Assembly: GCF_013410375.1 (NCBI RefSeq)
Contig: NZ_JACCFL010000001.1
Span: forward strand, 434,001 to 498,000
Reading direction: 5' to 3'
Length of the DNA: 64,000 nucleotides
Origin: Leifsonia shinshuensis
Lineage (GTDB): Bacteria; Actinomycetota; Actinomycetes; Actinomycetales; Microbacteriaceae
Shown in pieces: positions 10,608 through 47,554 of the stretch. The stretch's first letter is position 1. Each line of letters starts with the position of its first letter. A program made the position numbers and the translations under genes. The notes under the pieces are model-generated. The model did not search any database and was not told where the DNA came from. It worked only from the letters and a program-made list of their open reading frames with translations.

Positions 10608-10666
10608 CCGAGTACGCAGATTATCGACGGACTCGACGGTTTCCGGCCGATTTTTCGCGTACTCGG
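10608..10666. repeat. Three-box GAGTACGC element, copy A (degenerate middle box)
   Basis: First box CCGAGTACGC at 10608, expected second box position 10627 degenerate (ACGGACTCGA), third box GCGTACTCGG at 10657. The 19 and 30 bp spacing matches the four other copies. It lies in the 99 bp between the divergent Nudix and TMEM175-like genes. Confidence 0.75.
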
Positions 10667-10679
10667 GCATGATGTGCGT

Positions 10680-11306
10680 ATGGCGGAGGTTCGGACGCGG
10701 GGATTCGACCGGTTGGTCAACTTCTCGGACGCGGTGGTGGCGATCGCGATCACGCTGCTGATCCTGCCCCTCGTCGACGCGAGCTCCGAAGTCGCGAAGG
10801 AGGGCATCGCCCACTACTTCCAGCACAACTTCTGGCAGCTGCTCGCGTTCGCCATCTCGTTCGTCGTCATCGCGCGGCTGTGGATGGTCCACCACCAGGT
10901 CTTCGGCTGGATCGAGGGTTACACGAGCGGCCTGCTCTGGCTCAACATGCTGTGGCTGGCCTGCATCGTGTTCATGCCGTTCACCGCCAACGTGCTGTCC
11001 GACAGTCCGAACGGCCGGCCGGACGTCCACGCGCTCTACCTCGGCGACCTGCTCCTGACCGCGCTGGCAATGCAGTTCATGGAGCTCCTGATCGTCCGGA
11101 CTCCCGGCCTGCTGTCGGACGAGGGCCGGGCGCAGTCCGATCCGCTCCGCGGCTGGACGTTCATCATCCTGCTCGCGGTGGCGATGGTGCTCGCGATCGT
11201 CCTCCCCGACATCGGGATGTTCTGGCTGTTCATCCTCTTCCTGTCGCGGCCGGTGTACCTGCTGCTGGCCCGGATGCTCCGCCCGCGCGAGCGTGCGGGC
11301 GTCTGA
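10680..11306 (+). CDS. TMEM175-like (DUF1211) membrane protein, putative potassium channel
   Basis: Predicted 208-residue integral membrane protein. The N-terminal RGFDRLVNFSDAVVAIAIT contains the R-x-x-x-FSD signature of bacterial TMEM175 channels, which conduct potassium with weak selectivity. About six hydrophobic segments follow (at roughly 20-38, 58-78, 93-112, 127-145, 162-180 and 182-200). ATG 10680 lies 6 nt after a CATGAT box, suggesting a leaderless or very short leader. Divergent from the Nudix gene; the element at 10608-10666 lies directly in its promoter area. Confidence 0.85.
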   Translation: MAEVRTRGFDRLVNFSDAVVAIAITLLILPLVDASSEVAKEGIAHYFQHNFWQLLAFAISFVVIARLWMVHHQVFGWIEGYTSGLLWLNMLWLACIVFMPFTANVLSDSPNGRPDVHALYLGDLLLTALAMQFMELLIVRTPGLLSDEGRAQSDPLRGWTFIILLAVAMVLAIVLPDIGMFWLFILFLSRPVYLLLARMLRPRERAGV

Positions 11307-11352
11307 CCGGACGGCCCTTCCCAGCGGCCCGGCCGGGGGCTATCGTCGCGGC

Positions 11353-11541
11353 ATGCGACCCAAGACCTTTTTCGTGCTCCTCGTCATCGCCGCGGCCTAC
11401 ATCCTGGGCTCCCGCGCCGGCCGGGAGCGCTACGACCAGATCGTCGAGTCGGTGACCGCGTTCTGGAACAACCCGGACGTCAAGAAGGCGCGCAAGAACG
11501 CGAAGAAGCAGGCCGAGAAGGCCCGTAGGCGCTACGCCTGA
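11353..11541 (+). CDS. Small YtxH-like membrane protein with GSRAGRERY motif
   Basis: Predicted 62-residue protein: one N-terminal hydrophobic helix (FFVLLVIAAAYILGS), then the motif GSRAGRERYDQI, and a very basic C-terminus (KKARKNAKKQAEKARRRYA). The same architecture occurs in the 88-residue protein at 33230. Function unknown; a membrane-anchored protein with a cationic cytoplasmic tail is what the sequence shows. ATG 11353 follows TATCGT by 6 nt, which looks leaderless. Confidence 0.8.
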   Translation: MRPKTFFVLLVIAAAYILGSRAGRERYDQIVESVTAFWNNPDVKKARKNAKKQAEKARRRYA

Positions 11542-11556
11542 CCGGCTGAGCCGGGC

Positions 11557-11784
11557 TCAGGGCTCGCGGTAGTCGCCCTCGGTGTACTCGCCTTCCGGCG
11601 CCTCCGCGGGCTCCTCGACGTCGGTGTACGTGCCCTCGACGTCGGGCTCGGGGCCGGGGTTCTCCTCGGTCTCGGTGTACTGGCCGTGGACCGTGCGCTC
11701 GTGCGGTCCCTCGTCGTCGGACTCGGTGTAGCCGCCCTCGAGGTTCTCGCGGGCGGCGCCGGTGGGCTCTTCAGGGTTGCTCAT
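11557..11784 (-). CDS. Small acidic repeat protein (GxYT[ED] repeats)
   Basis: Predicted 75-residue, strongly acidic, hydrophilic protein. Four evenly distributed repeats are visible: GGYTES, GQYTET, GTYTDV and GEYTEG, separated by Pro/Glu-rich linkers. No membrane segment or signal. Likely disordered. The family is not recognised with a known function; the regular repeats and clean ORF support coding. Convergent with the small YtxH-like gene. Confidence 0.72.
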   Translation of the reverse strand: MSNPEEPTGAARENLEGGYTESDDEGPHERTVHGQYTETEENPGPEPDVEGTYTDVEEPAEAPEGEYTEGDYREP

Positions 11785-11900
11785 AGCCAGGAGAGTACGC
11801 TTTCGCGCGCCCCACGACCAGAGTGGAGGGGGCGGTCCTCCACGCGCTGCGCACCCGGTCCCTGTAGACGCTCCGGTACGCCCCCCGCTACCCTTCGGCC

Positions 11901-14738: not shown

Positions 14739-14757
14739 CGGCGACGCCCCGACCGCG

Positions 14758-14810: not shown

Positions 14811-14879
14811 GTGCGCCGCCCCCGAACCATAAAACCGAGTGGTGTAAGGTTTTGTTACGCCGCCGTTCGAAGGAGAATC

Positions 14880-17126: not shown

Positions 17127-17192
17127 CGTACGCCGCTTTCGGCGACGGTGAACCCCTTGCGTGGGCGGGGGGTTCGGCGTTGCGTCGGTGCC

Positions 17193-19918: not shown

Positions 19919-20434
19919 TCACCACTCCAGGGTGCGGCTCCAGACCGTCAGCGGGCGGCCGTCCACGTGCGTTCCCGAGCGGAAGCGGGCGAAGCCGCAG
20001 CGGGTCGCGACCGCCTCGCTCGCGGCGTTCCCGTCGAGGGTGCTGAGCCAGACCACCCGCTCGCCCTGGGCGCCGAGCCACGCGGAGAGCGCGGTGACGG
20101 CGCCGGTCACCAGGCCGCGGCCGCGCGCCTCCGGCAGCAACGCGTAGAACACCTCGAAACCGTCCTGCGACCGCCCGAAACCGACCGTTCCGAGCGCCTC
20201 GCCGCCCTCGTCGACGACGTACCGGATGCCGTGCCCCGCCTCCGCCGCGCGCACGTTGCGCTGCGCGCGGAGCCGGGCGCCGTCCTCGTCGAGATCGGCC
20301 GGGTACATCGTCCACGGCGGGATGTCCTCGACGTGCGCGAGCCGCAGCTCGACGTCCCAGTCCTCCTCCTCGAGCCGACGCAGCACCACGCCGTCGTGGC
20401 CCTCCAGAGCGAGACGCAACGGAAACGCATCCAT
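19919..20434 (-). CDS. GNAT-family N-acetyltransferase
   Basis: Predicted 171-residue acetyltransferase of the RimJ/RimL-like type. The acetyl-CoA P-loop is recognisable in LPEARGRGLVTGAV (R-x-x-G-x-G-like), preceded by a beta strand (FEVFYALL) and followed by WLSTLDGNAASEAVATRCGF. The acceptor (protein N-terminus, amino acid or drug) is unknown. ATG 20434 (MDAFPLRL). Confidence 0.85.
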   Translation of the reverse strand: MDAFPLRLALEGHDGVVLRRLEEEDWDVELRLAHVEDIPPWTMYPADLDEDGARLRAQRNVRAAEAGHGIRYVVDEGGEALGTVGFGRSQDGFEVFYALLPEARGRGLVTGAVTALSAWLGAQGERVVWLSTLDGNAASEAVATRCGFARFRSGTHVDGRPLTVWSRTLEW

Positions 20435-20463
20435 CCCCCGACCCTACCCGCCGCACGAAAGAG

Positions 20464-20525
20464 CCGAGTACGCGAATAGTCTGCGTACTCGGCTGCTTCC
20501 GGCTGATTTCGTGCGTACTCGGCGG
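20464..20525. repeat. Three-box GAGTACGC element, copy B
   Basis: CCGAGTACGC at 20464, GCGTACTCGG at 20483 and GCGTACTCGG at 20513. The first two form an inverted repeat, and the third is a direct repeat of the second. Lies between the acetyltransferase start and the oxidoreductase stop. Confidence 0.85.
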
Positions 20526-20529
20526 TGGG

Positions 20530-21549
20530 TCAGCGGGTGGGGGAGAGGGCGGGGATGGTGGCGACGGCGCGCGTGCGGACGGAGTCGTAGGCGCCGAGGA
20601 TGATCCCGAGCACCTCGATGCCCTCCTTGTGCGTGTGCAGCGGGCGGGTGCCGTCGAGGACGCTGCGGGCGAAGTGCTTCAGCTCCTCGCCGAACTGGTG
20701 CACCGGCTCCAGTGCGAGCACGGTGGGCTCGGCCTCCCCGCGCCGCTTGAGCGTGAGGGTGGTCCCGTCGCTGGTCAGGCTGCCGAGCTCGCCGACCGCC
20801 GAGAACTTCTCGGTGCCGGGAGCGGCCTCGTAGGCCCAGCTCGTGACGACGGTGCCGATCACCCCGTTGTCGAAGCGGACGAGCACCGTCGCCGAGTCCT
20901 CGCCCTCCATGAAGGTCAGCCGGTGCGTGGCCAGCATCGCCGTGACCTCGACCGGGGCTCCCCCGGCCAGGTGCAGCAGCAGATAGGTCGGGTGGTAGCC
21001 GGTGTCGATCAGCTCCCCGCCGCCGGAGGTCGACGCGTGCGCGCGCCAGCCCATGTTCGCCGGGTCGAAGTCGTTGTAGAAGGAGTCCGTCGTGCGCACC
21101 TCGTAGACCCGCCCGATCGCGCCGGACTCGATCAGCTCCTTCGCGCGGGCGACCGCGGGGAGGAACAGCTGGTTGTGCGCGCACATCAGGGTGACCCCGG
21201 CCTCCTCGACCGCCGCGGAGACCTCGGCGGCCTCCTCCGGGGTCAAGCAGAGCGGCTTCTCGCAGAGGATGTGCTTGCCGGCGCGGGCCGCGGCGACGAT
21301 CGCGTCCTTGTGGAGGTGGTGGGGCAGGCAGATGTCGACGGCGTCGATGTCCGACTCGGCGAGCATGTCGCGGTAGTCGGCGTAGATCGCCGCGCCGGAG
21401 GCGGCGGCGCGCTTCTCGGCGCTCTCGCGCACCGGGTCGGCGACGGCCGCGAAGGTGATGACATCGGGGTTGAGCAGGTAGCCCTCGACGTGGGCGCCGG
21501 CGATGCCGCCTGCCCCGATCAGGCCGATTCGGACGGTGTTGCTGGTCAT
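20530..21549 (-). CDS. Gfo/Idh/MocA-family oxidoreductase
   Basis: Predicted 339-residue NAD(P)-dependent sugar or cyclitol dehydrogenase. The Rossmann motif is GLIGAGGIAGAH (residues 9-20) and the family signature is AGKHILCEKPLCL (catalytic Lys in EKP). The C-terminal domain contains GGELIDTGYHP, with the Asp and His expected near the active site. It is 110 bp downstream of a second oxidoreductase of the same superfamily, so the two probably act in one pathway (for example inositol or a modified sugar). ATG 21549. Confidence 0.92.
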   Translation of the reverse strand: MTSNTVRIGLIGAGGIAGAHVEGYLLNPDVITFAAVADPVRESAEKRAAASGAAIYADYRDMLAESDIDAVDICLPHHLHKDAIVAAARAGKHILCEKPLCLTPEEAAEVSAAVEEAGVTLMCAHNQLFLPAVARAKELIESGAIGRVYEVRTTDSFYNDFDPANMGWRAHASTSGGGELIDTGYHPTYLLLHLAGGAPVEVTAMLATHRLTFMEGEDSATVLVRFDNGVIGTVVTSWAYEAAPGTEKFSAVGELGSLTSDGTTLTLKRRGEAEPTVLALEPVHQFGEELKHFARSVLDGTRPLHTHKEGIEVLGIILGAYDSVRTRAVATIPALSPTR

Positions 21550-34144: not shown

Positions 34145-34457
34145 GCATCCGAGGATAGGCCGCCTGTGCCGCCGCGCGGTCCGCCGCGGTGGACGGGCGG
34201 ATCGAGAACGACGACGCGTCGGTCACCATGAGCAGCTCGACGCCGTGCGCGTGCCGCAGGATCACGAGCGCGGACGCGTCGGACTCCGCGACCCGCTCCA
34301 CCTGGCGCAGGAAGATCCGCGCCATCTCGTCGCTCACGTGGAAGTCGCGCCCGAGGGCGTGCACGATGTAGCCGGGACCGTGCGGCTGGCACGCCTCGAG
34401 ACGGGTCTCCCGCCGGAACCCGTCGACCGCCGTCCTCGCCTCTGGCGTCATCGTCAT
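34137..34457 (-). CDS. Conserved hypothetical protein
   Basis: Predicted 106-residue protein (MTMTPEARTAVDGFRRETRL...). A central region (GPGYIVHALGRDFHVSDEMARIFLRQVERV) and a beta strand pair (ALVILRHAHGVELLMV) suggest a compact alpha/beta fold. ATG 34457 lies behind AGGAGGGGACCG; a second ATG two codons later is also possible. Overlaps the next gene by 8 bp. Confidence 0.72.
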   Translation of the reverse strand: MTMTPEARTAVDGFRRETRLEACQPHGPGYIVHALGRDFHVSDEMARIFLRQVERVAESDASALVILRHAHGVELLMVTDASSFSIRPSTAADRAAAQAAYPRMRG

Positions 34458-34560
34458 CGGTCCCCTCCTACCGTCCGTCCGGGCCCCGATTCCCCGGACT
34501 GTAGACGGTAGTCTTCTGCGCGAATCCGGCCAGGGGGTTGACGGGGGGTTAGATGGAGGC

Positions 34561-35490: not shown

Positions 35491-35508
35491 CGGCCTCCCG
35501 AAACAAAC

Positions 35509-35570
35509 CGCCGAGTACGCGAATTATCCGCGTACTCGGCGGTTTTCGCCCGATTTTGCGCGTACTCGAC
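35509..35570. repeat. Three-box GAGTACGC element, copy C
   Basis: CCGAGTACGC at 35511, GCGTACTCGG at 35530 and GCGTACTCGA at 35560 (19 and 30 bp apart). Located between the aldo/keto reductase and the SGNH/GAF gene. Confidence 0.85.
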
Positions 35571-35647
35571 AGCCTCTCCGGCGTCTGGCGGGAGTCGCGG
35601 CGAGCCGTGGGTGCCGTGGGGCGCATGGTCGGGATACCGTCGTGCAG

Positions 35648-36853: not shown

Positions 36854-36919
36854 CCGCTGAGCACAGGAAAAACGTCGCGTTTCAGCGTGATTCGCGACGG
36901 TTTTCCTGTGCTCGGCGGC
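36853..36919. terminator. 27-bp near-perfect stem-loop
   Basis: Arms 36853-36879 and 36893-36919 pair over 27 bp with two mismatches and a 13-nt loop, starting at the last base of the SGNH/GAF stop codon and sitting in the convergent gap before the exonuclease gene. No T-tract; part of the arm is AT-richer (GAGCACAGGAAAA). Confidence 0.6.
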
Positions 36920-36934
36920 TGCTTGGGGGAGGGG

Positions 36935-37855
36935 TCAGGTGAGGGCGGTGAGGCAGCGGTCGAGGGAGCCGCCGAGGGCCCAGCGCTCGGCGAGGGCCGC
37001 AAGGGCCGCGCGCTGCTCGTCGGAAGGGGCCCGCAGGCGCGCGTCGACCGTGCCGAGGGGGAGGTCGCGGACGACCTCGACGACGGTGGGCGCGACGGCG
37101 AGGTAGTCGCCCGCCGCGCCGAACTTCGTCCGGAGCGCGGGCTTCATCGCGCTCGCGGGGTCGGCGGCGGCCGCCCGGATCCCGTCGAGGTCGCCGTACT
37201 CGGCCAGCAGCGCGGCCGCGGTCTTCTCGCCGACCCCGGCGACGCCGGGCAGGCCGTCGGAGCTGTCACCGCGCATCGCGGCGAAATCCGCGTACTGGCG
37301 GGCGTGGATGCCGTACTTGGCCACGACCGTCGCGTCCGTCAGCACTTCCAGGTTGCTCATCCCGCGCGCGGTGTAGACGACGCGCACGTCCCGGTCGTCG
37401 TCGACCAGCTGGAACAGGTCGCGGTCGCCGGTCACGACGTCCACCGGTCCGGGCGTGGTGGTGGCGAGCGTGCCGATCACGTCGTCGGCCTCGTGGTCGG
37501 CGGCACCGACGATCGTGATCCCGAGGGCGTCGAGCACCTCCCGGATGACGGGCACCTGCGCGACGAGCTCGGCGGGCACCTCCTCCACGTCGACCCCGCC
37601 CGGCACCTCCTGCGCGACCCGGTGCGCCTTGTAGCTGGGGATCAGGTCGACGCGCCAGCGCGGCCTCCAGTTGTCGTCCCAGCAGGCCACGAGCGACTCG
37701 GGACGGTAGTCGGTGACCAGCTTCGCGATGATGTCGAGGAAGCCGCGCACCGCGTTCACCGGGGTGCCGTCCGGCGCCCGCACCGTGTCGGGGACGCCGT
37801 AGAACCCGCGGAAGTAGAGGGATGCGCTGTCGAGGAGCATCGTTCGCCCGGTCAC
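36935..37855 (-). CDS. 5'-3' exonuclease (PolA N-terminal-like / FEN family)
   Basis: Predicted 306-residue flap-type nuclease. Metal-binding residues are visible in LLLDSASLYFRGFYG, CWDDNWRPRWR, DHEADDVIGTLA and VVTGDRDLFQLV. The helix-hairpin-helix is GDSSDGLPGVAGVGEKTAA. It removes RNA primers or flaps in replication and repair. The start GTG 37855 (VTGRTMLLDS) is chosen to include the residues before the first strand; ATG 37840 is an alternative. Divergent from the SRPBCC gene with only 33 bp between starts. Confidence 0.92.
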   Translation of the reverse strand: MTGRTMLLDSASLYFRGFYGVPDTVRAPDGTPVNAVRGFLDIIAKLVTDYRPESLVACWDDNWRPRWRVDLIPSYKAHRVAQEVPGGVDVEEVPAELVAQVPVIREVLDALGITIVGAADHEADDVIGTLATTTPGPVDVVTGDRDLFQLVDDDRDVRVVYTARGMSNLEVLTDATVVAKYGIHARQYADFAAMRGDSSDGLPGVAGVGEKTAAALLAEYGDLDGIRAAAADPASAMKPALRTKFGAAGDYLAVAPTVVEVVRDLPLGTVDARLRAPSDEQRAALAALAERWALGGSLDRCLTALT

Positions 37856-37888
37856 AGCCCGATCATGCCATGCCGCTAAGGTGTGCGC

Positions 37889-38335
37889 ATGGCCGGAACA
37901 ATCGTCGTCGAGCGCACCGACACCATCCAGACCACGCCGGAAGCGCTGCTGCCCTACATCGCGGAGCTGCCGCGCTGGGTCGACTGGTCGCCGTGGGAGG
38001 GCATGGACCCCGCGCTGAAGCGCGAGTACACCGGTGAGCCGGGCACGGTCGGCTCCACGTACGCGTGGAGCGGCAACCGCAAGGCGGGCGCCGGGAGGAT
38101 GCGGATCGAGTCCGTCGAGCCGGACGGCGTCGGCGTCGCCCTCGACTTCACGCGGCCGTTCCGGTCGAGCAGCCACGTGCGCTTCCTGCTGAGCCCGGAG
38201 GGCGACCGCACCCGCGTCATCTGGCGGATGGAGAGCGCGAAGACCTTCTTCAGCCGCTTCTTCAACCTGGACAAGCTGATCGGACCGGACTTCGAGAAGG
38301 GACTCCGGCAGCTCAAGCAGCTGGTCGAGGCATGA
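37889..38335 (+). CDS. SRPBCC-family (polyketide cyclase-like) protein
   Basis: Predicted 148-residue START/SRPBCC fold protein: IVVERTDTIQTTPEALLPYIAELPRWVDWSPWE at the start, beta-sheet core (GVGVALDFTRPFRSSSHVRFLL) and a long C-terminal helix (FEKGLRQLKQLVE). Binds a hydrophobic ligand in its cavity; the ligand is unknown. ATG 37889 follows TAAGGT by 6 nt. Its stop overlaps the Nudix start (ATGA). Confidence 0.87.
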   Translation: MAGTIVVERTDTIQTTPEALLPYIAELPRWVDWSPWEGMDPALKREYTGEPGTVGSTYAWSGNRKAGAGRMRIESVEPDGVGVALDFTRPFRSSSHVRFLLSPEGDRTRVIWRMESAKTFFSRFFNLDKLIGPDFEKGLRQLKQLVEA

Positions 38336-38736
38336 CGCTGCCTCCGCTGCAGGTGTCGGCCGTCGCGGTGGTGCGCGACCGGCGCGTGCTCATGGTGACC
38401 TCCCGCGGGCGCGACGTGTACTACATGCCGGGCGGCAAGATCGACGCCGGTGAGACCGCGGCCGCGGCGGCGGCGCGGGAGGCCGAGGAGGAGGTCGCGC
38501 TCGCGCTCGACGCCGACGCGCTGGCCGAGCTGTTCGAGGTGCGGACGCAAGCCCACGGGGAACCGGACGGCCGGCAGGTCCACATGCGTGTGTTCCGGGC
38601 GGAGACGGCGGCCGAGCCCGCGCCGTCCGGCGAGGTGGACGCGGTGCACTGGGTGACGACGGCCGACGCCGACCGCTGCCCGCCCGCCGGGCGCGCGGTG
38701 CTGGAGCGTCTCGCCGCGCTCGGCCTCATCGACTGA
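38332..38736 (+). CDS. Nudix hydrolase
   Basis: Predicted 134-residue Nudix enzyme. The box reads GGKIDAGETAAAAAAREAEEE (G-x5-E-x7-RE-x2-EE), intact except that the conserved Leu is Ala. MutT-like size suggests house-cleaning of oxidised nucleotides or ADP-ribose-type compounds. Translationally coupled to the SRPBCC gene by an ATGA overlap, so the two are one transcript. Convergent with the MarR gene. Confidence 0.9.
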   Translation: MTLPPLQVSAVAVVRDRRVLMVTSRGRDVYYMPGGKIDAGETAAAAAAREAEEEVALALDADALAELFEVRTQAHGEPDGRQVHMRVFRAETAAEPAPSGEVDAVHWVTTADADRCPPAGRAVLERLAALGLID

Positions 38737-38750
38737 CTGCGCACGCGCCG

Positions 38751-38808
38751 AGGGGCACGTGAATGCCCCTGCAACGCCCGTTGAGAGGCCACAGGGCGCC
38801 CCTCGACG
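38751..38808. terminator. GC hairpins between Nudix and MarR genes
   Basis: AGGGGCA (38751-38757) pairs with TGCCCCT (38764-38770) across a 6-nt loop, and an outer CGAGGGGC pairs with GCCCCTCG near 38800. The arm sequence CCGAGGGGCAC is the same as in the tandem repeats at 39971-40534. Likely bidirectional terminator for the convergent pair. Confidence 0.5.
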
Positions 38809-38821
38809 ACCCCGCGGCGCG

Positions 38822-39343
38822 CTACGCGCTCGCGCGGGCGCCCTCAGCGGCCTCCACGATGGCCGCGCACGCGTCGGACGGCCGCCGGGCGGGGTCGATC
38901 GCGCCGACGAGCGCCGCCGAGATGTCCGCGAGCTGCTCGACCTGCTCCGGCCGGAGCGCCCCGAGGATGCGGTCCCGCACGGTCTCCAGGTGCCCGGGGG
39001 CCGCGTCGGCCACCATCGCCGCGCCGGCGTCGGTGAGGACCGCGTTCGTCGCCCGGCCGTCCTCCTCGCAGGGCATCCGCTTGACCAGGTCGCGGGCCTC
39101 CATGCGGGTGATGACGTGGCTGAGTCGCGAGACGGACGCGTTCGTGGCCGTCGCGAGGGCGCTCAGGCGCATCCGCCGATTGGGCTCCTCGGCGAGCCGC
39201 GAGAGCACGAAGTACTCGTAGTGCGTCGCCGCGGCGTCGCGCGCGAGCTGACCGTCGAGCACGGGAGGCAGCAGCTGCGTGAGCGCGACGAGGCCCAGCC
39301 AGGCGTCGCGTTCGCGGCCGGCGAGCTCCTCGTTCGTCCTCAT
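38822..39343 (-). CDS. MarR-family transcriptional regulator
   Basis: Predicted 173-residue winged-helix repressor. The recognition region is RMRLSALATATNASVSRLSHVITRMEARDLVKRMPCEEDGRATNAVLTDAG, the classical MarR helix-turn-helix plus wing. Dimerisation helices lie at both ends. ATG 39343 lies 7 nt after a minus-strand TAGAAT box, so the message may be leaderless; ATG 39352 is three codons upstream and would overlap that box. It probably represses itself and the divergent reductase through the paired operators at 39366-39410. Confidence 0.92.
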   Translation of the reverse strand: MRTNEELAGRERDAWLGLVALTQLLPPVLDGQLARDAAATHYEYFVLSRLAEEPNRRMRLSALATATNASVSRLSHVITRMEARDLVKRMPCEEDGRATNAVLTDAGAAMVADAAPGHLETVRDRILGALRPEQVEQLADISAALVGAIDPARRPSDACAAIVEAAEGARASA

Positions 39344-39365
39344 GGAGAGCATTCTATCGCATTAC

Positions 39366-39410
39366 TTGACGCTTCAACTAATGCGGGCTATCATTTAGTT
39401 GAAGCGTCAA
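39366..39410 (+). promoter_or_regulatory. Promoter embedded in paired inverted operators (MarR control region)
   Basis: TTGACG (39366-39371), 17 bp spacer and TATCAT (39389-39394) form a promoter for the reductase gene. Arms 39366-39381 and 39395-39410 are a perfect 16 bp inverted repeat. Each arm itself contains the dyad TTGAnnnTCAA-like core (GTTGAAGCGTCAAC). One operator covers the -35, the other the start point. Confidence 0.78.
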
Positions 39411-39445
39411 CAAAAGTGGCGCGAACTCGACAAGGAGAAGGACAC

Positions 39446-40015
39446 ATGACCACGGTCAGCATCATCGGGAACGGCAACATGGCGAAGGCGATCGGCGGCG
39501 TCCTGGCCGCGGGCGGCAGCACGGTGGAGTACCTGGGCCGCGCCGGCGGAGCGGTCAATGGCTCGATCGTCGTGCTGGCGGTTCCGTACCCGGAGGTCGA
39601 CGCGGTGCTCGCCACCTACGGCGCCCAGCTCGCCGGGAAGACCGTGGTCGACATCACCAACCCGGTCGACTTCGCCACCTTCGACGGACTGACCGTCCCC
39701 GCCGACTCGTCCGCGGCCGCGACGATCGCGGCCGCCCTGCCCGAGGCGCGCGTCCTCAAGGCGTTCAACACCACGTTCGCGGCCACGCTCGCCTCCGGCG
39801 TCAACGGCTCGCACCCGACCACCGTGCTCATCGCGGGCGACGACGAGGACGCGAAGGCCGAGCTCGCCGCGCTGATCCGCGCGGGCGGCCTCAACGCGGT
39901 CGACGCCGGCCCCCTCAGCCGCGCCCGCGAGCTGGAGGCCCTCGGCTTCCTGCAGATCACGCTGGCCGCCGCCGAGCGCGTCTCCTGGACCGGCGGCTTC
40001 GCGGTCGTCGCGTAA
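39446..40015 (+). CDS. NADPH-dependent F420 reductase-like oxidoreductase
   Basis: Predicted 189-residue Rossmann protein of the F420:NADP oxidoreductase/pyrroline-carboxylate reductase-like group: SIIGNGNMAKAIGGVLAAGG (GxGxM nucleotide motif), IVVLAVPYPEVD, VVDITNPVDF and RVLKAFNTTFA. Unusually short for a two-domain dehydrogenase, as in the family. ATG 39446 with AAGGAG. Divergent from the MarR gene and controlled by the promoter/operators between them. Its last 45 bp are duplicated three more times downstream. Confidence 0.9.
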   Translation: MTTVSIIGNGNMAKAIGGVLAAGGSTVEYLGRAGGAVNGSIVVLAVPYPEVDAVLATYGAQLAGKTVVDITNPVDFATFDGLTVPADSSAAATIAAALPEARVLKAFNTTFAATLASGVNGSHPTTVLIAGDDEDAKAELAALIRAGGLNAVDAGPLSRARELEALGFLQITLAAAERVSWTGGFAVVA

Positions 40016-40534
40016 CCACCGCTGGCTCGCGGACTGCATCCTCCCGAGGGGCACGACCTCCTCGCTTCCAGACCCGGAAGCGATGACGGCGTGCCCCTCG
40101 AGGCGTAGAGGGCGGCCCAGCGTGTTCGGTGGATCGGCGGCTTCGCGGTCGTCGCGTAGCCACCGCTGGCTCGCGGACTGCATCCTCCCGAGGGGCACGC
40201 GACCACCTCGCTTCGCGCCCCGGAAGCGATGACGGCGTGCCCCTCGAGGTGTATGGGGCGACCGAGCGTGTTCGGTGGACCGGCGGCTTCGCGGTCGTCG
40301 CGTAGCCACGCTCGCTCGCGGACCGCATCCTGCCGAGGGCATGACCTTCTCGCTTCCAGGCCCGGAAGCGATGACGGCGTGCCCCTCGAGGCGTAGGGGG
40401 CGGCCGAGCGTGTTGGGTGGACCGGCGGCTTCGCGGTCGTCACGTAGCCACGCTCGCTCGCGGGCCGCATGCTGCCGAGGGCATGACTTTCGCGCTTCCA
40501 GACCCGGAAGCGATGACGGCGTGCCCCTCGAGGC
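39971..40534. repeat. Tandem repeat, four units of 142-146 bp carrying copies of the upstream gene end
   Basis: Unit starts judged by GGCGGCTTCGCGG are 39992, 40136, 40282 and 40424. The homology begins earlier, at the codons for AERVSWTGGFAVVA of the reductase (39971), and each later unit keeps that segment followed by TAG. Every unit then contains CGAGGGGCAC...GTGCCCCTCG with an inner CGCTTCC...GGAAGCG, a two-level stem-loop (for unit 1: 40045-40054 with 40091-40100, and 40063-40069 with 40076-40082). Units 3 and 4 have decayed outer stems; unit 4 ends at about 40534. No gene in the 545 bp gap. Confidence 0.85.
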
Positions 40535-40560
40535 ATCCGGACCGCCAGTAGGGTGTGGAT

Positions 40561-41559
40561 GTGAGCGAGAGCGGACGGGCACCCGGCGTGCGGGAGGTCG
40601 CAGCCGCCGCGGGGGTCTCGCGGCAGACCGTGTCCCGCGTGCTCAACGACCATCCGAGCATCCGGCCGGAGACGCGCGAGCGGGTGTTGGCGGCGATGGC
40701 CGACCTCAACTTCCGTCCGAACCGCGCCGCCCGCATGCTCACCACCGCGCGCTCGCGCACCATCGGCGTGCTGGCATCCTCCGCGTCGTCGCTGTTCGGG
40801 CCGGCGTCCAGCATCGACGCTGTCGAGCAGGCCGCGCGGGACGCGGGCTACTTCGTCACTGTCGCCCACGCGGCCTCCCTCGACCCGGGCGACCTCGGGG
40901 CGGCCATCGACCACCTCGGCGCGCAGTCGGTGGAGGGCGTCATCGTGATCGCGCCGCAGCGTGCGGTGCAGGAGGCCATGGCCGCGTTCTCGCTCGCCGT
41001 CCCGTCGGTCACCCTGCACGGCGCGGGTGTCGCGGGCGACGACGGCGTCTTCGTGGATCAGCTGGAGGGCGCCCGGCTCGCCACCCGCCACCTGATCGAG
41101 CGCGGCCACACGCGCATCGCCCATCTCAGCGGCCCGGGCGACTGGTCGGAGGCTCGCGCGCGGCGCGACGGGTTCCTCGCCGAGCTCGCCGCGGCCGGCC
41201 TCGAGCCGGTGGTGTCCAGGGACGGTGACTGGACGGCCGCGTCCGGCGCGGCGATCGGCGCTGAGCTGCTCGCCGCCCCCGAACTGACGGCCGTGTTCTC
41301 CTCGAACGACCAGATGGCGCTCGGGCTGCTGCACGCGGCGCGGGAGCGGGGACGCCGGGTGCCCGAGGACCTCGCGGTGGTGGGCTTCGACGACATCCCC
41401 GAGGCGGCCTTCTTCGCGCCGCCGCTGACGACGGTGCGCCAGGACTTCGCCGAGCTCGGCCGCCGCTGCGTGGCGCGCCTGGTGGCGCTCATCGAGGGAC
41501 GCGAGCTCGCGTTCGACGCGCCGGTGGCGCCGGTGCTGGTGGTGCGCGACTCGGCGTGA
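40561..41559 (+). CDS. LacI-family transcriptional regulator (probable arabinose repressor)
   Basis: Predicted 332-residue repressor. The helix-turn-helix VREVAAAAGVSRQTVSRVLNDHPSIRPETRERV occupies residues about 10-45, and a hinge helix (NRAARMLTTARS) is followed by a periplasmic-binding-protein-like ligand domain with VVGFDDIPEAAFFAPPLTTVRQD. The start is placed at GTG 40561, 7 nt after AGGG; GTG 40555 is possible. Adjacent upstream of araBDA, so L-arabinose (or a derivative) as inducer and TGTGACCGGTCACA as operator are reasonable inferences. Confidence 0.9.
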   Translation: MSESGRAPGVREVAAAAGVSRQTVSRVLNDHPSIRPETRERVLAAMADLNFRPNRAARMLTTARSRTIGVLASSASSLFGPASSIDAVEQAARDAGYFVTVAHAASLDPGDLGAAIDHLGAQSVEGVIVIAPQRAVQEAMAAFSLAVPSVTLHGAGVAGDDGVFVDQLEGARLATRHLIERGHTRIAHLSGPGDWSEARARRDGFLAELAAAGLEPVVSRDGDWTAASGAAIGAELLAAPELTAVFSSNDQMALGLLHAARERGRRVPEDLAVVGFDDIPEAAFFAPPLTTVRQDFAELGRRCVARLVALIEGRELAFDAPVAPVLVVRDSA

Positions 41560-41570
41560 CCCCGCGCCGC

Positions 41571-41623
41571 ATTCGTCACGAATGTGCAGAACGCGCGAGC
41601 GAGAGCCGCGATTCGTCACGAAT
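41571..41623. repeat. Paired ATTCGTCACGAAT boxes (locus 3)
   Basis: ATTCGTCACGAAT at 41571 and 41611, 40 bp apart, both followed by GTGC. Located in the 155 bp between the LacI gene and araB, upstream of the promoter. Confidence 0.8.
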
Positions 41624-41643
41624 GTGCGCCCGGCGGAGGCGGC

Positions 41644-41699
41644 TTGACAAGGGGATTGTGCGCGAGGGACACTCGTACGACACTATGTGACCGGTCACA
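41644..41699 (+). promoter_or_regulatory. araB promoter and LacI-type operator
   Basis: TTGACA (41644-41649) with GACACT at 18 bp (41668-41673) is a plausible promoter; the -10 match is weak. Downstream, TGTGACCGGTCACA (41686-41699) is a perfect 14 bp palindrome with the central CG typical of LacI-family operators, placed to block transcription start. A 14 bp identical copy of its core and left flank lies in araD. Confidence 0.7.
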
Positions 41700-41713
41700 A
41701 CGAAGTGAGAACG

Positions 41714-43327
41714 ATGAACACCCACCGCGACGCCCTCGTCAGCGGCCGCACCGCCCTCGGGATCGAGCTGGGCTCCACCCGCATCAAGGCCTGCCTGGTC
41801 GACGCCGCCGATCCCGCGACCGTGCTGGCCGTCGGCTCCCACGAGTGGGAGAACGACTTCGTCGACCGCACCTGGACGTACTCGCTCGACGCGGTCTGGT
41901 CCGGCCTGCAGGCCGCCTACGCCGCCCTCGTGGCCGACGCGGAGGCGCGGCACGGCGTGCGGCCGCGGACTGCCGGCGCCATCGGCGTCTCCGCGATGAT
42001 GCACGGCTACCTCGCCTTCGACGCCGCCGGGGAGCTGCTGGTCCCGTTCCGCACCTGGCGCAACACGACGACCGGGCCCGCGAGCGCCGAGCTCGGCGAG
42101 CTCTTCGGCGTCAACATCCCGCTGCGCTGGTCGATCGCGCACCTCCACCAGGCCGTGCTGGACGACGAGCCGCACCTGTCGCGCCTGCACACGATCACCA
42201 CCCTCGCCGGCCACGTGCACGAGCGCCTGACCGGCCGCCGCGTCCTCGGCGTCGGTGATGCGTCGGGGATGTTCCCGATCGACTCCGCCACCGCCGGCTA
42301 CGACGCGGAGCTGGTCGCCCGCTACGACGCGCGCGTCGGGTCGGCGCTCCCGAAGCCGCTCCTCGACCTCCTGCCCGAGGTGCTCGTCGCGGGCGAGCCC
42401 GCCGGCGAGCTGACCCCGGAGGGCGCCGCGCTGCTCGACCCGTCGGGGGAGCTGCTGCCCGGCATCCCGTTCTGCCCGCCCGAGGGCGACGCCGGCACCG
42501 GCATGGTCGCGACCGGCTCGGTCGCCCCGCGCACCGGCAACGTGAGTGCGGGTACGAGCATCTTCGCGATGGTGGTGCTGGAGCGCCCGCTCGCCCAGCC
42601 GCATCACGAACTGGACCTGGTCACCACGCCGGCCGGCGACGCGGTCGCGATGGTGCACTGCAACAACGGCGCCAGCGAGCTGTCGGCGTGGGCGTCGCTC
42701 TTCGGCCGGTTCGCCGAGGCCGCCGGCGTCCCGGTCGCGGCGGACGCGGTCTTCGAGACGCTGTTCCGCGAGGCGCTCGACGGCGAGGCCGACGCGGGAG
42801 GCCTCCTCGCCTACAACTACCTCGCCGGAGAGCCGATCACGGGCCTCGACGAGGGGCGGCCGCTGGTCGCCCGCACGCCGGACAGCCGGCTCACCCTCGG
42901 CAACTTCGCCCGCGCACAGCTCTACGGCGTCTTCGGGACGCTGGCGCTCGGGATGCAGGTGCTGCACGCCGAGGGGGCGGCCCTGGACCGGATGTTCGCG
43001 CACGGCGGGATGTTCCGTACGGCCGGAGTCGCGCAGCGCTTCCTGGCCGGGGCTCTGGACGCGCCCGTTTCCGTCGCCGACACCGCGTCGGAGGGCGGGG
43101 CCTGGGGCGCGGCGGTGCTCGCGGCCTACCTCGGCGCCGCCCGCGACGGCACCCCGCTCGACGCCTACCTCGACCGGGAGGTGTTCTCCGGCTTCGCCGC
43201 CGACACCGTGGAGCCGCACCCCGACGACGTCGCCGGCTTCGCCTCCTACCTCGCCCGCTACCGCGACGGCCTGGCGGCCGAGCGCGCCGCCGTCGAGTCG
43301 ATCGCTCTGAAGGGAACCGCCCGATGA
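41714..43327 (+). CDS. araB: FGGY-family ribulokinase (actinobacterial AraB type)
   Basis: Predicted 537-residue FGGY carbohydrate kinase that phosphorylates L-ribulose with ATP. Two actin-like domains: N-terminal ALGIELGSTRIKACLV (phosphate-1 loop), IGVSAMMHGYLAF; C-terminal SAGTSIFAMVVLE (adenosine loop) and MFAHGGMFRTAGVAQRFLAGAL. Assignment to ribulokinase rather than xylulokinase rests on the araD-araA neighbours. ATG 41714 follows the operator by 14 bp. The stop overlaps the araD start (ATGA). Confidence 0.92.
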   Translation: MNTHRDALVSGRTALGIELGSTRIKACLVDAADPATVLAVGSHEWENDFVDRTWTYSLDAVWSGLQAAYAALVADAEARHGVRPRTAGAIGVSAMMHGYLAFDAAGELLVPFRTWRNTTTGPASAELGELFGVNIPLRWSIAHLHQAVLDDEPHLSRLHTITTLAGHVHERLTGRRVLGVGDASGMFPIDSATAGYDAELVARYDARVGSALPKPLLDLLPEVLVAGEPAGELTPEGAALLDPSGELLPGIPFCPPEGDAGTGMVATGSVAPRTGNVSAGTSIFAMVVLERPLAQPHHELDLVTTPAGDAVAMVHCNNGASELSAWASLFGRFAEAAGVPVAADAVFETLFREALDGEADAGGLLAYNYLAGEPITGLDEGRPLVARTPDSRLTLGNFARAQLYGVFGTLALGMQVLHAEGAALDRMFAHGGMFRTAGVAQRFLAGALDAPVSVADTASEGGAWGAAVLAAYLGAARDGTPLDAYLDREVFSGFAADTVEPHPDDVAGFASYLARYRDGLAAERAAVESIALKGTAR

Positions 43328-44040
43328 CCGCAGCCCAGGCGCCCACCCCCGAGTCCCCCGCCGTCCGCCGCACCCGGGAGCAGGTCGCCGCCCTCCACGC
43401 CGAGCTGGTCCGCTACGGGCTCGTCGTCTGGACCGGAGGCAACGTCTCCGGGCGCGTCCCCGGCGAGGACCTGTTCGTCATCAAGCCGAGCGGCGTCGAC
43501 TACGACGACCTCGCGCCGGAGAACATGATCCTCTGCACGCTCGACGGCGAGGTCGTCCCCGGCTCGGCCGGATGTGACCGGTCACCGTCCTCCGACACCG
43601 CCGCGCACGCCTACGTCTACCGACACCTTCCCGAGGTCGGCGGCGTCGTGCACACGCACTCCACCTACGCCACCGCGTGGGCGGCGCGCGCCGAGCCGAT
43701 CCCGTGCGTCATCACCGCGATGGCCGACGAGTTCGGCGGCGAGATCCCGGTCGGGCCGTTCGCGATCATCGGCGACGACTCCATCGGGCGCGGCATCGTC
43801 GCGACGCTGGAGGGCCACCGCAGCCGCGCGGTCCTCATGCAGAACCACGGCGTCTTCACCATCGGCCGCGACGCGCGCGACGCCGTGAAGGCCGCGGTCA
43901 TGGCGGAGGACGTCGCCCGCACCGTGCACATCGCGCGGCAGGGCGGCCCGCTCGTCCCGATCCCGCAGGAGGCGATCGACAGCCTCTTCGACCGCTACCA
44001 GAACGTCTACGGACAGAACCCGGAAGGATCCCTCGCCTGA
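43324..44040 (+). CDS. araD: L-ribulose-5-phosphate 4-epimerase
   Basis: Predicted 238-residue class II aldolase/epimerase converting L-ribulose 5-phosphate to D-xylulose 5-phosphate. Phosphate-binding [23 protein letters not shown], zinc-binding [12 protein letters not shown] and later QNHGVF are present. Between DGEVVPG and SPSSDT the protein has SAGCDR, a few residues longer than I expect for the family. This insert is encoded by an operator-like palindrome (43572-43585). Coupled to araB by ATGA and to araA by TGATG. Confidence 0.93.
43572..43585. promoter_or_regulatory. Intragenic LacI-type operator copy inside araD
   Basis: ATGTGACCGGTCAC is identical over 14 bp to the araB operator region (41685-41698). 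It encodes Cys-Asp-Arg-Ser with codons TGT and TCA that are unusual in this high-GC sequence, in an extra loop of the enzyme. Confidence 0.65.
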
Positions 44041-45557
44041 TGCCGAAGCTCACGACCTCCCTCGACCACTACGAGGTCTGGTTCCTCACCGGCAGCCAGC
44101 ACCTGTACGGACCGGAGACGCTGGCGCAGGTCGCCGAGCAGTCCCGCGGGATCGCCGACGCCCTCGGCGCCTCCTCCGAGGTGCCGGTGCGCGTCGTCTG
44201 GAAGCCGGTGCTGACCGACTCCGACGCCATCCGCCGCATCGCGCTGGAGGCCAACGCCGACGACGCCGTGATCGGCCTCGTCGCGTGGATGCACACCTTC
44301 AGCCCCGCCAAGATGTGGATCGCCGGCCTGGACGCCCTGCAGAAGCCGCTGCTGCACTTCCACACCCAGGCGAACGTCGAGCTGCCGTGGGGCGAGATCG
44401 ACTTCGACTTCATGAACCTCAACCAGGCCGCGCACGGCGACCGCGAGTTCGGGTACATCCAGACCCGCCTCGGCGTCCCGCGCACCACGGTCGTCGGCCA
44501 CGTCAGCGACCCGGCCGTGACGCAGCGCATCGGCACCTGGACGCGCGCCGCCGCCGGCCACGCGGCCACCCGCTCGCTGAAGCTCGCCCGCTTCGGCGAC
44601 AACATGCGCTTCGTCGCGGTGACGGAGGGCGACAAGACGGAGGCCGAGCTGCGCTTCGGCGTGCAGGTCAACACCTGGGGCGTGAACGAGCTGGCCGACG
44701 CGGTCGCCGCCGCCTCCGACGCCGCCGTGGACGCGCTGGTCGCCGAGTACGAGGACCTGTACGACGTCGTCCCGGAGCTCCGTCGCGGCGGCGAGCGTCA
44801 TCAGTCGCTGCGCGACGGCGCCGCGATCGAGGTCGGGCTGCGCTCGTTCCTGGAGGAGGGCGGCTTCGGCGCCTTCACCACCAGCTTCGAGGACCTCGGA
44901 GCGCTGAAGCAGCTCCCCGGCCTCGCCGTCCAGCGGCTGATGGCCGAGGGCTACGGCTTCGGCGCGGAGGGCGACTGGAAGACGGCGATCCTGGTCCGCG
45001 CCGCGAACGTCATGGGCGCGGGCCTCCCCGGCGGCGCGTCCCTGATGGAGGACTACACCTACGACCTCACGCCCGGCGACGAGCGCATCCTCGGCGCGCA
45101 CATGCTCGAGGTCTCGCCGTCGCTCACCAGCGCGAAGCCGACGCTGGAGGTCCACCCGCTCGGCATCGGCGGCAAGGACGACCCGGTCCGCCTGGTCTTC
45201 ACCGCCGACCCCGGCCCCGCGGTGGTCGTGGCGCTCTCGGACATGCGCGACCGCTTCCGGCTCGTGGCGAACGTCGTGGAGGTCGTCGAGCCGACCGCCC
45301 CGCTGCCGAAGCTCCCGGTCGGCCGCGCCGTGTGGAAGCCGGCTCCCGACTTCACTACGTCGGCGACCGCGTGGCTGGAGGCCGGCGCCGCGCACCACAC
45401 CGTGATGAGCACCGCCGTCGGCATCCAGGCCTTCGAGGACTTCGCCCGCATGGCCCGCACCGAGCTTCTCGTCATCGACGAGGACACCACGCTGCGCGCC
45501 TTCTCCCGCGAGCTCGACTGGAACGCCGCCTACTACCGCCTCGCCCGCGGCCTCTAG
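44040..45557 (+). CDS. araA: L-arabinose isomerase
   Basis: Predicted 505-residue Mn2+-dependent isomerase converting L-arabinose to L-ribulose, the first step of the pathway. Conserved blocks: [13 protein letters not shown] at the N-terminus, [10 protein letters not shown], and the metal and catalytic residues in [24 protein letters not shown] and AHHTVMS (two Glu, two His). Length is normal. ATG 44040 shares one base with the araD stop. Last gene of the operon; followed by three-box element copy D. No arabinose transporter is encoded nearby. Confidence 0.96.
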
Positions 45558-45625
45558 CCGCGCAGACTCCCGGCCGTCGCCCTGTCATCGGCGTGCGGCG
45601 GCCGGGTCCCCCCTCCGCACCGCAA

Positions 45626-45690
45626 CCGCCGAGTACGCGAATTGTCTGCGTACTCGGCGGTTTTCGCCTGATTATTCGCGTACTCGGCGG
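45626..45690. repeat. Three-box GAGTACGC element, copy D
   Basis: CCGAGTACGC at 45629, GCGTACTCGG at 45648 and GCGTACTCGG at 45678. Located in the convergent gap between araA and the MerR gene. Confidence 0.88.
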
Positions 45691-45696
45691 TTGGGG

Positions 45697-46521
45697 TCAG
45701 GAGGCGGGCTCGACGGGAGCCTGGAGTTCGGTGAGCCAGTCGGGGGCGGGCTCGTGGCCGGTGGCGTGGAGGTAGACCTCGCGGGTGGGGCCGACGACCC
45801 GGTAGCCGTCGGCGACGAGGCGCTCGGTGAGCGCCATCCAGGAGTCGCCGATGCCGGTCATGTCGCCGTGGTGCAGCAGCGTCGCGGCGAGCGGGACCGC
45901 GGGGAGGTCGACGATCTCGTAGCCGTCGCCGGCCCGCGGCGGCGTCTCGGCCGGGTAGGAGATGTGCACCTCCAGGCGCTCGTCGTCCCTGGCCTCGTAC
46001 CAGAACACCGACGGCGCCAGGATCGGGCGGCCCGCGGCCTCCAGCGCGCTGTCCAGCGAGCCGATGAGCGGCCCGACCATCGGGCCGACCAGCTCGGGGC
46101 CCATCCCGGGCGCGGTGCCGCTGACGGCGTAGACGGTGACCGCCTCCAGCGGCCGGTACTCGACGGGTGTGGTCATGATCTCGGTTCCTTCCAGTATGCG
46201 GAGGCGCCGCTCCAGGCGGTCGAGCCGGTTCCGGTCGTCGGCGATGCCCGCTTCCAGCTCGGCCCGGCGCTGCCGGAGCGCCGCCGTGAGGGCGGGGCGC
46301 GGGTCGTCGGACGCGAGCACGGCGGCGATGGCGTCGAGGCCGATCCCGAGCTGTCGCAGCTCGACGATCAACAGCAGTCCGGCCAGCTGCGCGTCCGTGT
46401 AGTAGCGGTACCCGCTGCGGTCGTCCACGCGCGCCGGCGGTAGCAGGCCGATGGCGTCGTAGTGCCGCAGCATCCGGACGCTGACCCGCCCGATCGCGGC
46501 GAACTCTCCGATGGTGTACAT
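45697..46521 (-). CDS. MerR-family regulator with GyrI-like ligand domain
   Basis: Predicted 274-residue activator. The winged helix (YTIGEFAAIGRVSVRMLRHYDAIGLLPPARVDDRSGYRYY) spans residues 2-41 and is followed by a coiled coil (RQRRAELEAGIADDRNRLDRLERRLRILE). A C-terminal GyrI/effector-binding domain starts at about 120 (VEYRPLEAVTVYAV) and senses small or cationic molecules in relatives such as BmrR. ATG 46521. Divergent from the NmrA-like reductase; the dyad between them fits a MerR operator. Confidence 0.9.
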   Translation of the reverse strand: MYTIGEFAAIGRVSVRMLRHYDAIGLLPPARVDDRSGYRYYTDAQLAGLLLIVELRQLGIGLDAIAAVLASDDPRPALTAALRQRRAELEAGIADDRNRLDRLERRLRILEGTEIMTTPVEYRPLEAVTVYAVSGTAPGMGPELVGPMVGPLIGSLDSALEAAGRPILAPSVFWYEARDDERLEVHISYPAETPPRAGDGYEIVDLPAVPLAATLLHHGDMTGIGDSWMALTERLVADGYRVVGPTREVYLHATGHEPAPDWLTELQAPVEPAS

Positions 46522-46531
46522 GATGGAGGCC

Positions 46532-46562
46532 ACGATCCAGCCTGACACGGTGTGAGGGTCAA
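46532..46562 (-). promoter_or_regulatory. MerR-type promoter with 19 bp spacer
   Basis: On the minus strand TTGACC (46562-46557) and a -10-like GATCGT (46537-46532) are 19 bp apart, the over-long spacing typical of MerR-activated promoters. The spacer region holds the dyad CCTcACACcGTGTcAGG (46541-46557). Confidence 0.65.
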
Positions 46563-46649
46563 GCACGGGAAGCGGAGCACGCGGACGCTGGACGCGGCGG
46601 CGTCCCCTGACCGATCATGTGGGGAGACGACGGGTCGCAAGGAGCACAC

Positions 46650-47489
46650 ATGACCATCGCAGTCACAGGAGTAACCGGGACGGTCGGCCGGCTCGCCGCG
46701 TCCGAGCTCGCGGAGGCCGGCCTCCCCTTCCGCATGCTGGCGCGCTCCCCGGAGCGCGCCCCGCGATTCCCCGGCACCGAGGTGTTCGCCTGCACGTACG
46801 CCGACGGCGACTCGGTGCGCGCCGCGCTGGAGGGCGTGGACACCGTCCTCATGGTCTCGGCGGCCGAGAACGAGCACCGGCTCCGCGAGCACCTCGCGTT
46901 CGTGGACGCCGCGGCCGACGCCGGCGTGCGGCACATCGTCTACACCTCGTTCTTCGGCGCCGCGCCCGACGCGACCTTCACCCTCGCCCGCGACCACTAC
47001 GCCACCGAGGAACGCATCAAGGCGACCGGGATGGCGTACACCTTCCTGCGCGACGACCTCTATCTCGACTTCGTGGAGTACATGGTCGGCGAGGACGGAG
47101 TGATCCGCGGGCCGGCCGGGCACGGCAAGGCGGCCATGGTCGCGCGCGCCGACGTCGCCCGGGTGGCCGCGGTCGCGCTCCGGAACCCCGAGCAGCACCG
47201 GAACGTCACCTACGATCTGACCGGTCCGGAGGACCTGACGATGGCGCAGGTCGCCGAGAAGCTGACGGCTCATCTGGGCCGCGCCGTCTCGTTCCACGAC
47301 GAGACGGTCGAGGAGGCCTACGCCTCGCGGAAGAAGTGGGACGCCCCGCAGTGGCAGTACGACGCGTGGGTGTCCACCTACATCGCGATCGCCGCCGGCG
47401 AGTTCGCTGGGCCGAGCGGCGATGTCGAGCGCGTCACCGGCCGCCGGCCGCTCTCGCTCGACGAGTTCCTGACCTCCCGCCCCGAATGA
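46650..47489 (+). CDS. NmrA-like NAD(P)-binding SDR (quinone oxidoreductase QorB-like)
   Basis: Predicted 279-residue atypical short-chain dehydrogenase. The Rossmann motif is AVTGVTGTVGRLAASELAEAG, followed by MLARSPERAPRF, which sets NADP preference. Then come HIVYTSFFGAAPDATF and AYTFLRDDLYLDF. QorB-like proteins bind or reduce quinones. ATG 46650 has AAGGAG; the earlier in-frame ATG 46617 has no such site. Divergent from, and probably controlled by, the MerR protein. Confidence 0.88.
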   Translation: MTIAVTGVTGTVGRLAASELAEAGLPFRMLARSPERAPRFPGTEVFACTYADGDSVRAALEGVDTVLMVSAAENEHRLREHLAFVDAAADAGVRHIVYTSFFGAAPDATFTLARDHYATEERIKATGMAYTFLRDDLYLDFVEYMVGEDGVIRGPAGHGKAAMVARADVARVAAVALRNPEQHRNVTYDLTGPEDLTMAQVAEKLTAHLGRAVSFHDETVEEAYASRKKWDAPQWQYDAWVSTYIAIAAGEFAGPSGDVERVTGRRPLSLDEFLTSRPE

Positions 47490-47491
47490 AA

Positions 47492-47554
47492 CCGCCGAGT
47501 ACGCAGATAGTCTGCGTACTCGGCGGCTTCCGACCGATTATGTGCGTACTCGGG
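47492..47554. repeat. Three-box GAGTACGC element, copy E
   Basis: CCGAGTACGC at 47495, GCGTACTCGG at 47514 and GCGTACTCGG at 47544. Fills nearly the whole 67 bp convergent gap between the reductase and the phosphoesterase. Confidence 0.88.

Follow-up and report, generated by a model that had tools for sequence, protein, structure and literature searches.

A three-box intergenic repeat family with fixed geometry in Leifsonia

Five copies of a three-box element in one window

The DNA analyzed here (the window) is a stretch of 64,000 nucleotides from Leifsonia shinshuensis, positions 434001-498000 of a genome (the source genome) that consists of a single contig of 4,418,190 bases. A sequence-only reading of the window had described five intergenic copies of an element made of a short box, its reverse complement and a direct copy of that reverse complement at fixed distances. 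We defined the family as GAGTACGC-N9-GCGTACTC-N22-GCGTACTC, with box distances measured start to start on 10-letter boxes, and at up to three mismatches this pattern matched the window exactly five times, compared to 0 matches in 100 dinucleotide shuffles. All five copies were found where that reading had placed them, each with box 2 lying 19 bp after box 1 and box 3 lying 30 bp after box 2, and the degenerate copy at 10608, whose only two mismatches fall in box 2 (GACGGACTCG), keeps this spacing. Exact box 8-mers occur 18 times in the window, 14 of them inside the five elements and 4 outside. Genes were called with a simple codon-usage caller written for this analysis, on which all statements about neighbors and overlaps rest, and these calls agree that the five copies are intergenic. 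The copies and their neighbors are listed below.

10603..10671, + strand: copy 1; boxes 10610-10617, 10627-10634 (degenerate) and 10657-10664; neighbors are an isochorismatase-domain gene, 9532-10107 (+), and a TMEM175-domain gene, 10680-11306 (+)
20459..20527, + strand: copy 2; boxes 20466-20473, 20483-20490 and 20513-20520; neighbors are a GNAT gene, 19919-20389 (-), and a GFO/IDH/MocA oxidoreductase gene, 20530-21549 (-)
35506..35574, + strand: copy 3; boxes 35513-35520, 35530-35537 and 35560-35567; neighbors are an aldo/keto reductase gene, 34561-35490 (+), and a GDSL-lipase-like gene, 35642-36853 (+)
45624..45692, + strand: copy 4; convergent neighbors are araA, 44040-45557 (+), and a MerR/GyrI-like gene, 45697-46533 (-)
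45631..45638, + strand: box 1 of copy 4, GAGTACGC
45648..45655, + strand: box 2 of copy 4, GCGTACTC, the inverse of box 1 with a 9-nt loop between them
45678..45685, + strand: box 3 of copy 4, GCGTACTC, which repeats box 2 directly at a distance of 30 bp and is the alternative partner of box 1
47490..47558, + strand: copy 5; spans the ends of a convergent NmrA-like gene, 46650-47489 (+), and a phosphoesterase gene, 47557-49230 (-)

RNA folding predicts long stems in all five copies, with z-scores of -2.3 to -9.9 across both strands, and it yields both of the alternative hairpins that had been proposed. On both strands the minimum-energy form is box 1:box 2 for three copies (20464, 35509 and 47492) and box 1:box 3 for the other two, 45626 and 10608, the latter with its damaged box 2. 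No match to Rfam 15 at gathering score was found anywhere in the window, and a known structured RNA family was dismissed on that result.

Anatomy and placement of the 69-bp unit

The sequence-only reading had staked the family on copies beyond the window, to be sought in the whole genome and in other Microbacteriaceae, and on a conserved core. The source genome holds 48 copies at the exact 19/30 geometry (up to three mismatches; 0 for a reversed-pattern control), other Leifsonia genomes hold further copies, and the copies share a conserved unit of about 69 bp. The hairpin part alone, at up to two mismatches, occurs at 49 places, and rereading of the sequence gives 49 three-box copies, the additional one being 247013 with four mismatches. 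Column statistics over these 49 copies resolve the unit into a 15-bp box, its inverse and then a direct copy, laid out as AACCGCC-GAGTACGC, a 9-base loop RRATNNTCY, GCGTACTC-GGCGGTT, a 15-base spacer and again GCGTACTC-GGCGGTT. The middle had been noted as similar among the window copies, and the conservation in fact continues past the boxes, from 7 bp before box 1 through 7 bp after box 3, with almost no sequence information outside. Each box extends beyond GAGTACGC, to about AACCGCCGAGTACGC, and boxes 1 and 3 therefore double as the unit's terminal inverted repeats. Columns T15, A41 and T43 are the same in 49/49 copies and G40 in 47/49, and the T-rich columns 31-34 come after the box 1-box 2 stem on one strand. 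Within a single copy in the source genome, the flanks of the three boxes (GGCGG, GACGG, GGCTG, GAGCG and others) differ largely independently of each other.

The geometry is rigid, given that altering the second step by one base leaves 0 matches in the source genome, compared to 48 at the correct spacing, and 6 among the 28 Leifsonia genomes compared here (the source genome included; the others carry G-numbers). Two near misses with a 31-bp step occur in the source genome, 2088215 and one side of 1847205. Copies also combine: at two places copies on both strands share one hairpin (2978726/2978756 and 3142205/3142235), and at one place three tandem copies lie 73 bp apart (247013, 247086 and 247159).

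When copies no more than 300 bp apart are merged, the source genome has 45 element junctions, of which 23 lie between convergent genes, 18 between tandem genes and 4 between divergent genes, with a gene overlap of more than 10 bp at none of them. The convergent share (23/45) exceeds the background of 58/291 (20%) for the same stretches with element junctions excluded (p ~3e-6), and by count there are fewer divergent junctions than expected (p 0.005). Gene 3' ends lie close by, at a median distance of 7 bp, with 55 of 64 distances no greater than 30 bp.

A stretch of 852 kb, from 3.8135 to 0.247 Mb across the contig start, holds no listed copy (p ~0.001 under uniform placement, a post hoc test). 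An origin-centered mark of a chromosome domain was considered and dropped; dnaA lies at 0.350 Mb, ~0.1 Mb past the end of this gap, so the copy-free stretch is one-sided.

Distribution, box classes and inheritance in the genus

The GAGTACGC form was found in 20 stretches among 84,980 species genomes, all of them Leifsonia, contigs of L. aquatica DSM 20146 included, and in 3 of 398 family genomes, again all Leifsonia. For relatives we used a more generic pattern, CGAGNNNGC-N9-GCNNNCTCG-N21-GCNNNCTCG, which at up to one mismatch matches 12 of the 28 genus genomes, with 0 matches of a reversed control in all 28. The matches number 48 in the source genome, 59 in G413, 41 in G398, 35 in G399, 32 in G409, 23 in G178 and 22 in G411, and fewer in G408 (16), G405 (15), G360 (10), G401 (8) and G304 (2). 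At 0 mismatches it occurs in 4/10 genus members of the family sample (source genome included) and in 0/388 of its other genomes, and in the class sample in the source genome only, with 0/295 others. We excluded G403:C1:1351649-1351703 (L078), a different palindrome with GAGTACGC and GCGTACTC ends that matches on both strands. No paper on such repeats in Leifsonia appeared among the matches listed in a literature search, most subscription papers lying outside its scope.

The units of relatives have the same geometry and a similar loop with other boxes, which fall into a GGC class (mainly GAGRCGGC and GAGTGGGC) and a CGC class (GAGTACGC, GAGTCCGC and GAGTGCGC). All 182 rows listed across nine genomes entered the box-class statistics; some few of them are other-strand readings of palindromic places. 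One class runs through all three boxes in 171 of the 182 rows (107 GGC, 64 CGC); the other 11 have one odd letter, and in four of these one box carries the letter of the other class. Both classes are present in 7/9 genomes. Within the GGC class, boxes 1 and 2 are fully complementary at the three variable letters in 56/107 rows, compared to 35.3+-4.0 in within-genome shuffles (0/5000), and boxes 2 and 3 are identical in 52/107, compared to 35.1+-4.3 (0/5000). Box 2 is thus linked both to its stem partner, box 1, and to box 3, which repeats it directly. The box 1-box 2 stem does not account for the class tie of box 3, which hints at a factor recognizing the three boxes together or at exchange between copies. 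In seven GGC-class units (G399 C18:151069, 249633, 250339 and C21:46071; G409 C1:3010899 and 3739247; G398 C2:444987) box 3 doubles as the right arm of another hairpin, 30 bp further on, and all or nearly all of that hairpin's left arm is present. This suggests an origin of the three-box unit from two hairpins in tandem.

Many copies occupy the same junctions in different species. Flanks from the source genome were mapped onto 400-kb stretches of G402 and G178. In G178, 16/23 element junctions coincide with those of the source genome, a count made up of 14/18 fetched elements plus 479631 and 469513 (source positions), with three more in the same stretch unshared; one of the 14, the hairpin-only place 1516449, was matched by one flank. 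G408 shares 11/18 junctions, two of them by one flank or neighbor only (C34:360428 and C23:379907), and G360 shares 2/4, while G413, which lies elsewhere in the tree, shares 2/17 (3 with a weak 71-base match). Orientation agrees at 21/25 shared junctions (p ~0.001, with some junctions counted in two genomes): 20 pairs agree, 3 are opposite (L283, L296 and L300) and the G178 unit of L281 is two-way, L276, L307 and L305 being left out of this comparison, and the two further G178 junctions are the same at 479631 and opposite at 469513.

At 9 of the 16 junctions shared with G178 the class is switched, GGC in G178 and CGC in the source genome. When each ortholog is ranked among the 49 source copies by loop and spacer, the unswitched pairs rank 2, 2, 45, 2, 1, 2, 1, 18, 1, 2, 7 and 2, ranks that mostly mark clear descent. 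The switched pairs rank 9, 7, 35, 47, 1, 34, 1, 8 and 20, so that for most of them a change in place looks the same as replacement by another copy. The clearest switch is at 1470890, a junction common to G178, G408, G411, G405 and G409, where G178 keeps the loop and the GACGG flank and differs in both stem arms and box 3. The counterparts of 481497 (copy 5) in G402 and G178 are similar hairpins that lack the third box and whose two arms differ from the source copy in a paired fashion.

Some junctions lack the element in relatives. The junction at 759970 has no element in G178 (2 bp versus 91), and that at 479631 (copy 4) has none in G402 (28 bp versus 98) and two tandem GGC-class copies in G178. 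A tree of 21 genomes built on one locus groups G402 (0 copies) with G178 as its sister (support 0.89), the source genome coming next, and loss in G402 is therefore the simplest reading, on the thin evidence of a single locus.

The relatives carry a second family of long, perfect hairpins, GGGCACGTAAACGCCCC...GGGGCGTTTACGTGCCC (or with TTGTTGTC), at ~3135173 of G402 C1 (95173 of the joined stretch) and at 66277, 271783 and 337766 of the G178 joined stretch. At two junctions, those of source positions 736326 (in G402) and 454466 (in G178), this hairpin stands where the source genome has the three-box element.

Proposed hairpin function, rival readings and known repeat systems

The reading we favor, with a probability of about 0.5, is that the copies are a genus-restricted, noncoding family resembling repetitive extragenic palindromes (REPs) that acts as a hairpin at gene 3' ends. 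It builds on the geometry, the copy number, the 3'-end placement, the box 1-box 2 covariation in the GGC class and the junctions shared across species; the RNA hairpin in particular is favored by the placement, the stem covariation and the paired differences at 481497. Transcription from either side would fold the 69-bp unit into a long G+C-rich stem, box 1 pairing with box 2 or with box 3, and the RNA form would be the functional one. Lying a few bases from stop codons, often between convergent genes, the hairpin would most likely terminate transcription or protect mRNA 3' ends. The copies would have spread by a copying activity other than a Y1 transposase of the known REP-associated (RAYT) type, would then exchange sequence with each other, and would after their spread be inherited, converted or lost. 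Such exchange would explain the class difference of all three boxes at shared places.

The family shares features with intrinsic (bidirectional) terminators: a stable, G+C-rich hairpin just 3' of stop codons (by predicted folding of the five window copies, at the median distance of 7 bp), a T-run after the box 1-box 2 stem on one strand, the one that tandem genes read less often, convergent placement and paired differences across species. Unlike terminators, it is a sequence family at ~48 places, it keeps a loop, a spacer and a third box that terminators do not need, and termination here is a putative role. Several observations weigh against the favored reading. Tandem genes enter the element from the box 3 side 13 times and from the side where the hairpin is followed by TTTT (box 1) 5 times (p 0.096), so a simple one-way terminator with its T-run after box 2 is not favored. 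A scan of window positions 34000-50000 found 1 terminator-like hit, compared to 2.2 expected in shuffles; this hit, a 5-bp stem adjacent to the main stem, overlaps copy 4, and the other copies in that interval were not called as terminators. Strong termination would also be odd at 1683208 (L113), between the large- and small-subunit genes of ribonucleotide reductase, and at 1995109 (L120), in a divergent LigD/Ku region. In the GGC class, box 1-box 3 complementarity is not above shuffles (44/107 versus 38.9+-4.1; 696/5000), and this pairing was rejected as a conserved alternative on the full three letters (the inner two letters give 54/5000). That box 2-box 3 identity does exceed shuffles is not explained by a hairpin. 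The outer stem pairs of the source copies covary weakly (best p 0.018) and their box cores hardly vary, so the covariation case rests on the relatives. Finally, the copies are dispensable, since G402 has none.

A tentative and less probable reading is that in this actinobacterial genus, without a RAYT, a putative trans-acting factor reads the three boxes together, its dispersed sites being respelled in concert and the set being lost with the factor; loss of the factor may be why G402 lacks copies. The reasoning is that inherited copies keep their place, mostly their orientation and their geometry while all boxes switch class. A rival reading, which we consider doubtful, takes the boxes as half-sites of a putative double-stranded-DNA-binding protein, an inverted pair with a third site three helical turns away and the hairpin incidental; its specificity would shift between lineages and all three boxes would shift together. 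The single class in 171/182 rows (nine genomes, seven with both classes), the few off-by-one exceptions to the 30-bp step and the largely independent flanks within one source copy, as in degenerate binding sites, suit such a protein. However, the elements are placed at the 3' ends of genes and seldom in divergent promoter regions (4/45), and box 1-box 2 complementarity within single rows exceeds that in within-genome shuffles. Improbable, too, is a miniature inverted-repeat transposable element (MITE) moved by a DDE-type transposase. MITEs are likewise short and nonautonomous with terminal inverted repeats, here boxes 1 and 3 with their flanks (AACCGCCGAGTACGC...GCGTACTCGGCGGTT); the copies 986208 and 1908439 are identical at 31/31 variable positions in unrelated flanks, and the element is absent at some junctions in relatives. 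Yet target-site duplications of 2-9 bases gave no signal at 49 boundary offsets (best z 2.5 of 392 tests), and the internal third box is left unexplained. No transposase or recombinase was found among 40 of the 96 neighbor genes, the other 56 and the whole genome not being scanned, and hence no driver gene adjoining a copy emerged from these 40. The hairpin pattern had 0 exact matches in viral contigs and one consensus-like copy had no match in plasmids or phages, and a phage or plasmid origin was dropped on these results.

REPs are palindromes of 20-40 bp tagged GTAG or CGTC, mostly between unidirectional or convergent genes and often linked to a RAYT (PMC3733652; PMC8266576). With REPs and bacterial interspersed mosaic elements (BIMEs), as described there, the Leifsonia family shares short palindromic intergenic hairpins in tens of copies with a convergent and unidirectional bias (48 copies; 23+18 of 45 junctions), and single, tandem and inverted arrangements (PMC3733652; PMC8266576). 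The word "Actinobacteria" has 0 occurrences in these two papers. These likenesses, of size, palindromic form, placement and single, tandem and back-to-back arrangement (PMC3733652), would also suit a REP/RAYT system whose transposase was lost or has diverged too far to be recognized, which we consider unlikely: PF01797, the REP transposase, has no match in any of the 28 genus genomes, although 5/14 control genomes score, E. coli among them. The GTAG or CGTC tag is not fixed either; over 49 copies the flanks are mostly AA at -6/-5 and TT at 61/62, and CGTC stands at the hairpin foot only in a minority of copies reading CCGTCGAG. The family further differs from REPs in its third box at a fixed 30 bp, its class-dependent box spelling and its many copies shared in place between species. 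Membership in REP/RAYT was rejected on PF01797, and since the family lacks both a PF01797 match and a fixed tag, we file it as REP-like in form and placement but outside REP/RAYT.

The sequence-only reading had proposed a REP/BIME-like or mobile-repeat family. The first term holds as a likeness, for a short palindromic intergenic family of 48 copies, biased to 3' ends, with tandem and back-to-back forms. Mobility holds in part: dispersal is shown by the 986208/1908439 pair and the few junctions shared with G413 (2, or 3, of 17), whereas among closer relatives most of the copies examined share their junction with a source copy, usually in matching orientation, and neither target-site duplications nor PF01797 were found.

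In Neisseria, DNA uptake sequences have dialects, species-specific spellings of a short word that forms inverted pairs at gene ends. The Leifsonia boxes, paired in inverse orientation at the ends of genes and spelled differently from genome to genome, resemble this, and a similar uptake system, its pairs doubling as terminators, can be imagined; we consider it very unlikely. The words are far fewer, and they are nearly confined to a rigid three-box unit, with only 4 of the 18 exact window boxes outside elements. We know of no counterpart to that unit in the Neisseria sequences and of no such uptake in the genus Leifsonia.

REP-type repeats are usually credited to RAYT transposases, and a comparable family exists in Leifsonia where none was found. 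With nearby species at hand, gain, inheritance, respelling and mass loss can be compared junction by junction. Two questions become testable: what keeps the dispersed noncoding repeats of one genome similar, and whether such repeats are a source from which gene-end hairpins are recruited. G402, without copies, beside its sister G178, with them, is a natural subtraction for the responsible gene.

Apart from this family, the window carries at 39366-39410 a 16-bp perfect inverted repeat (ttgacgcttcaactaa) that is unlike the three-box element and falls on the sole promoter-like site of the + strand between 34000 and 50000.

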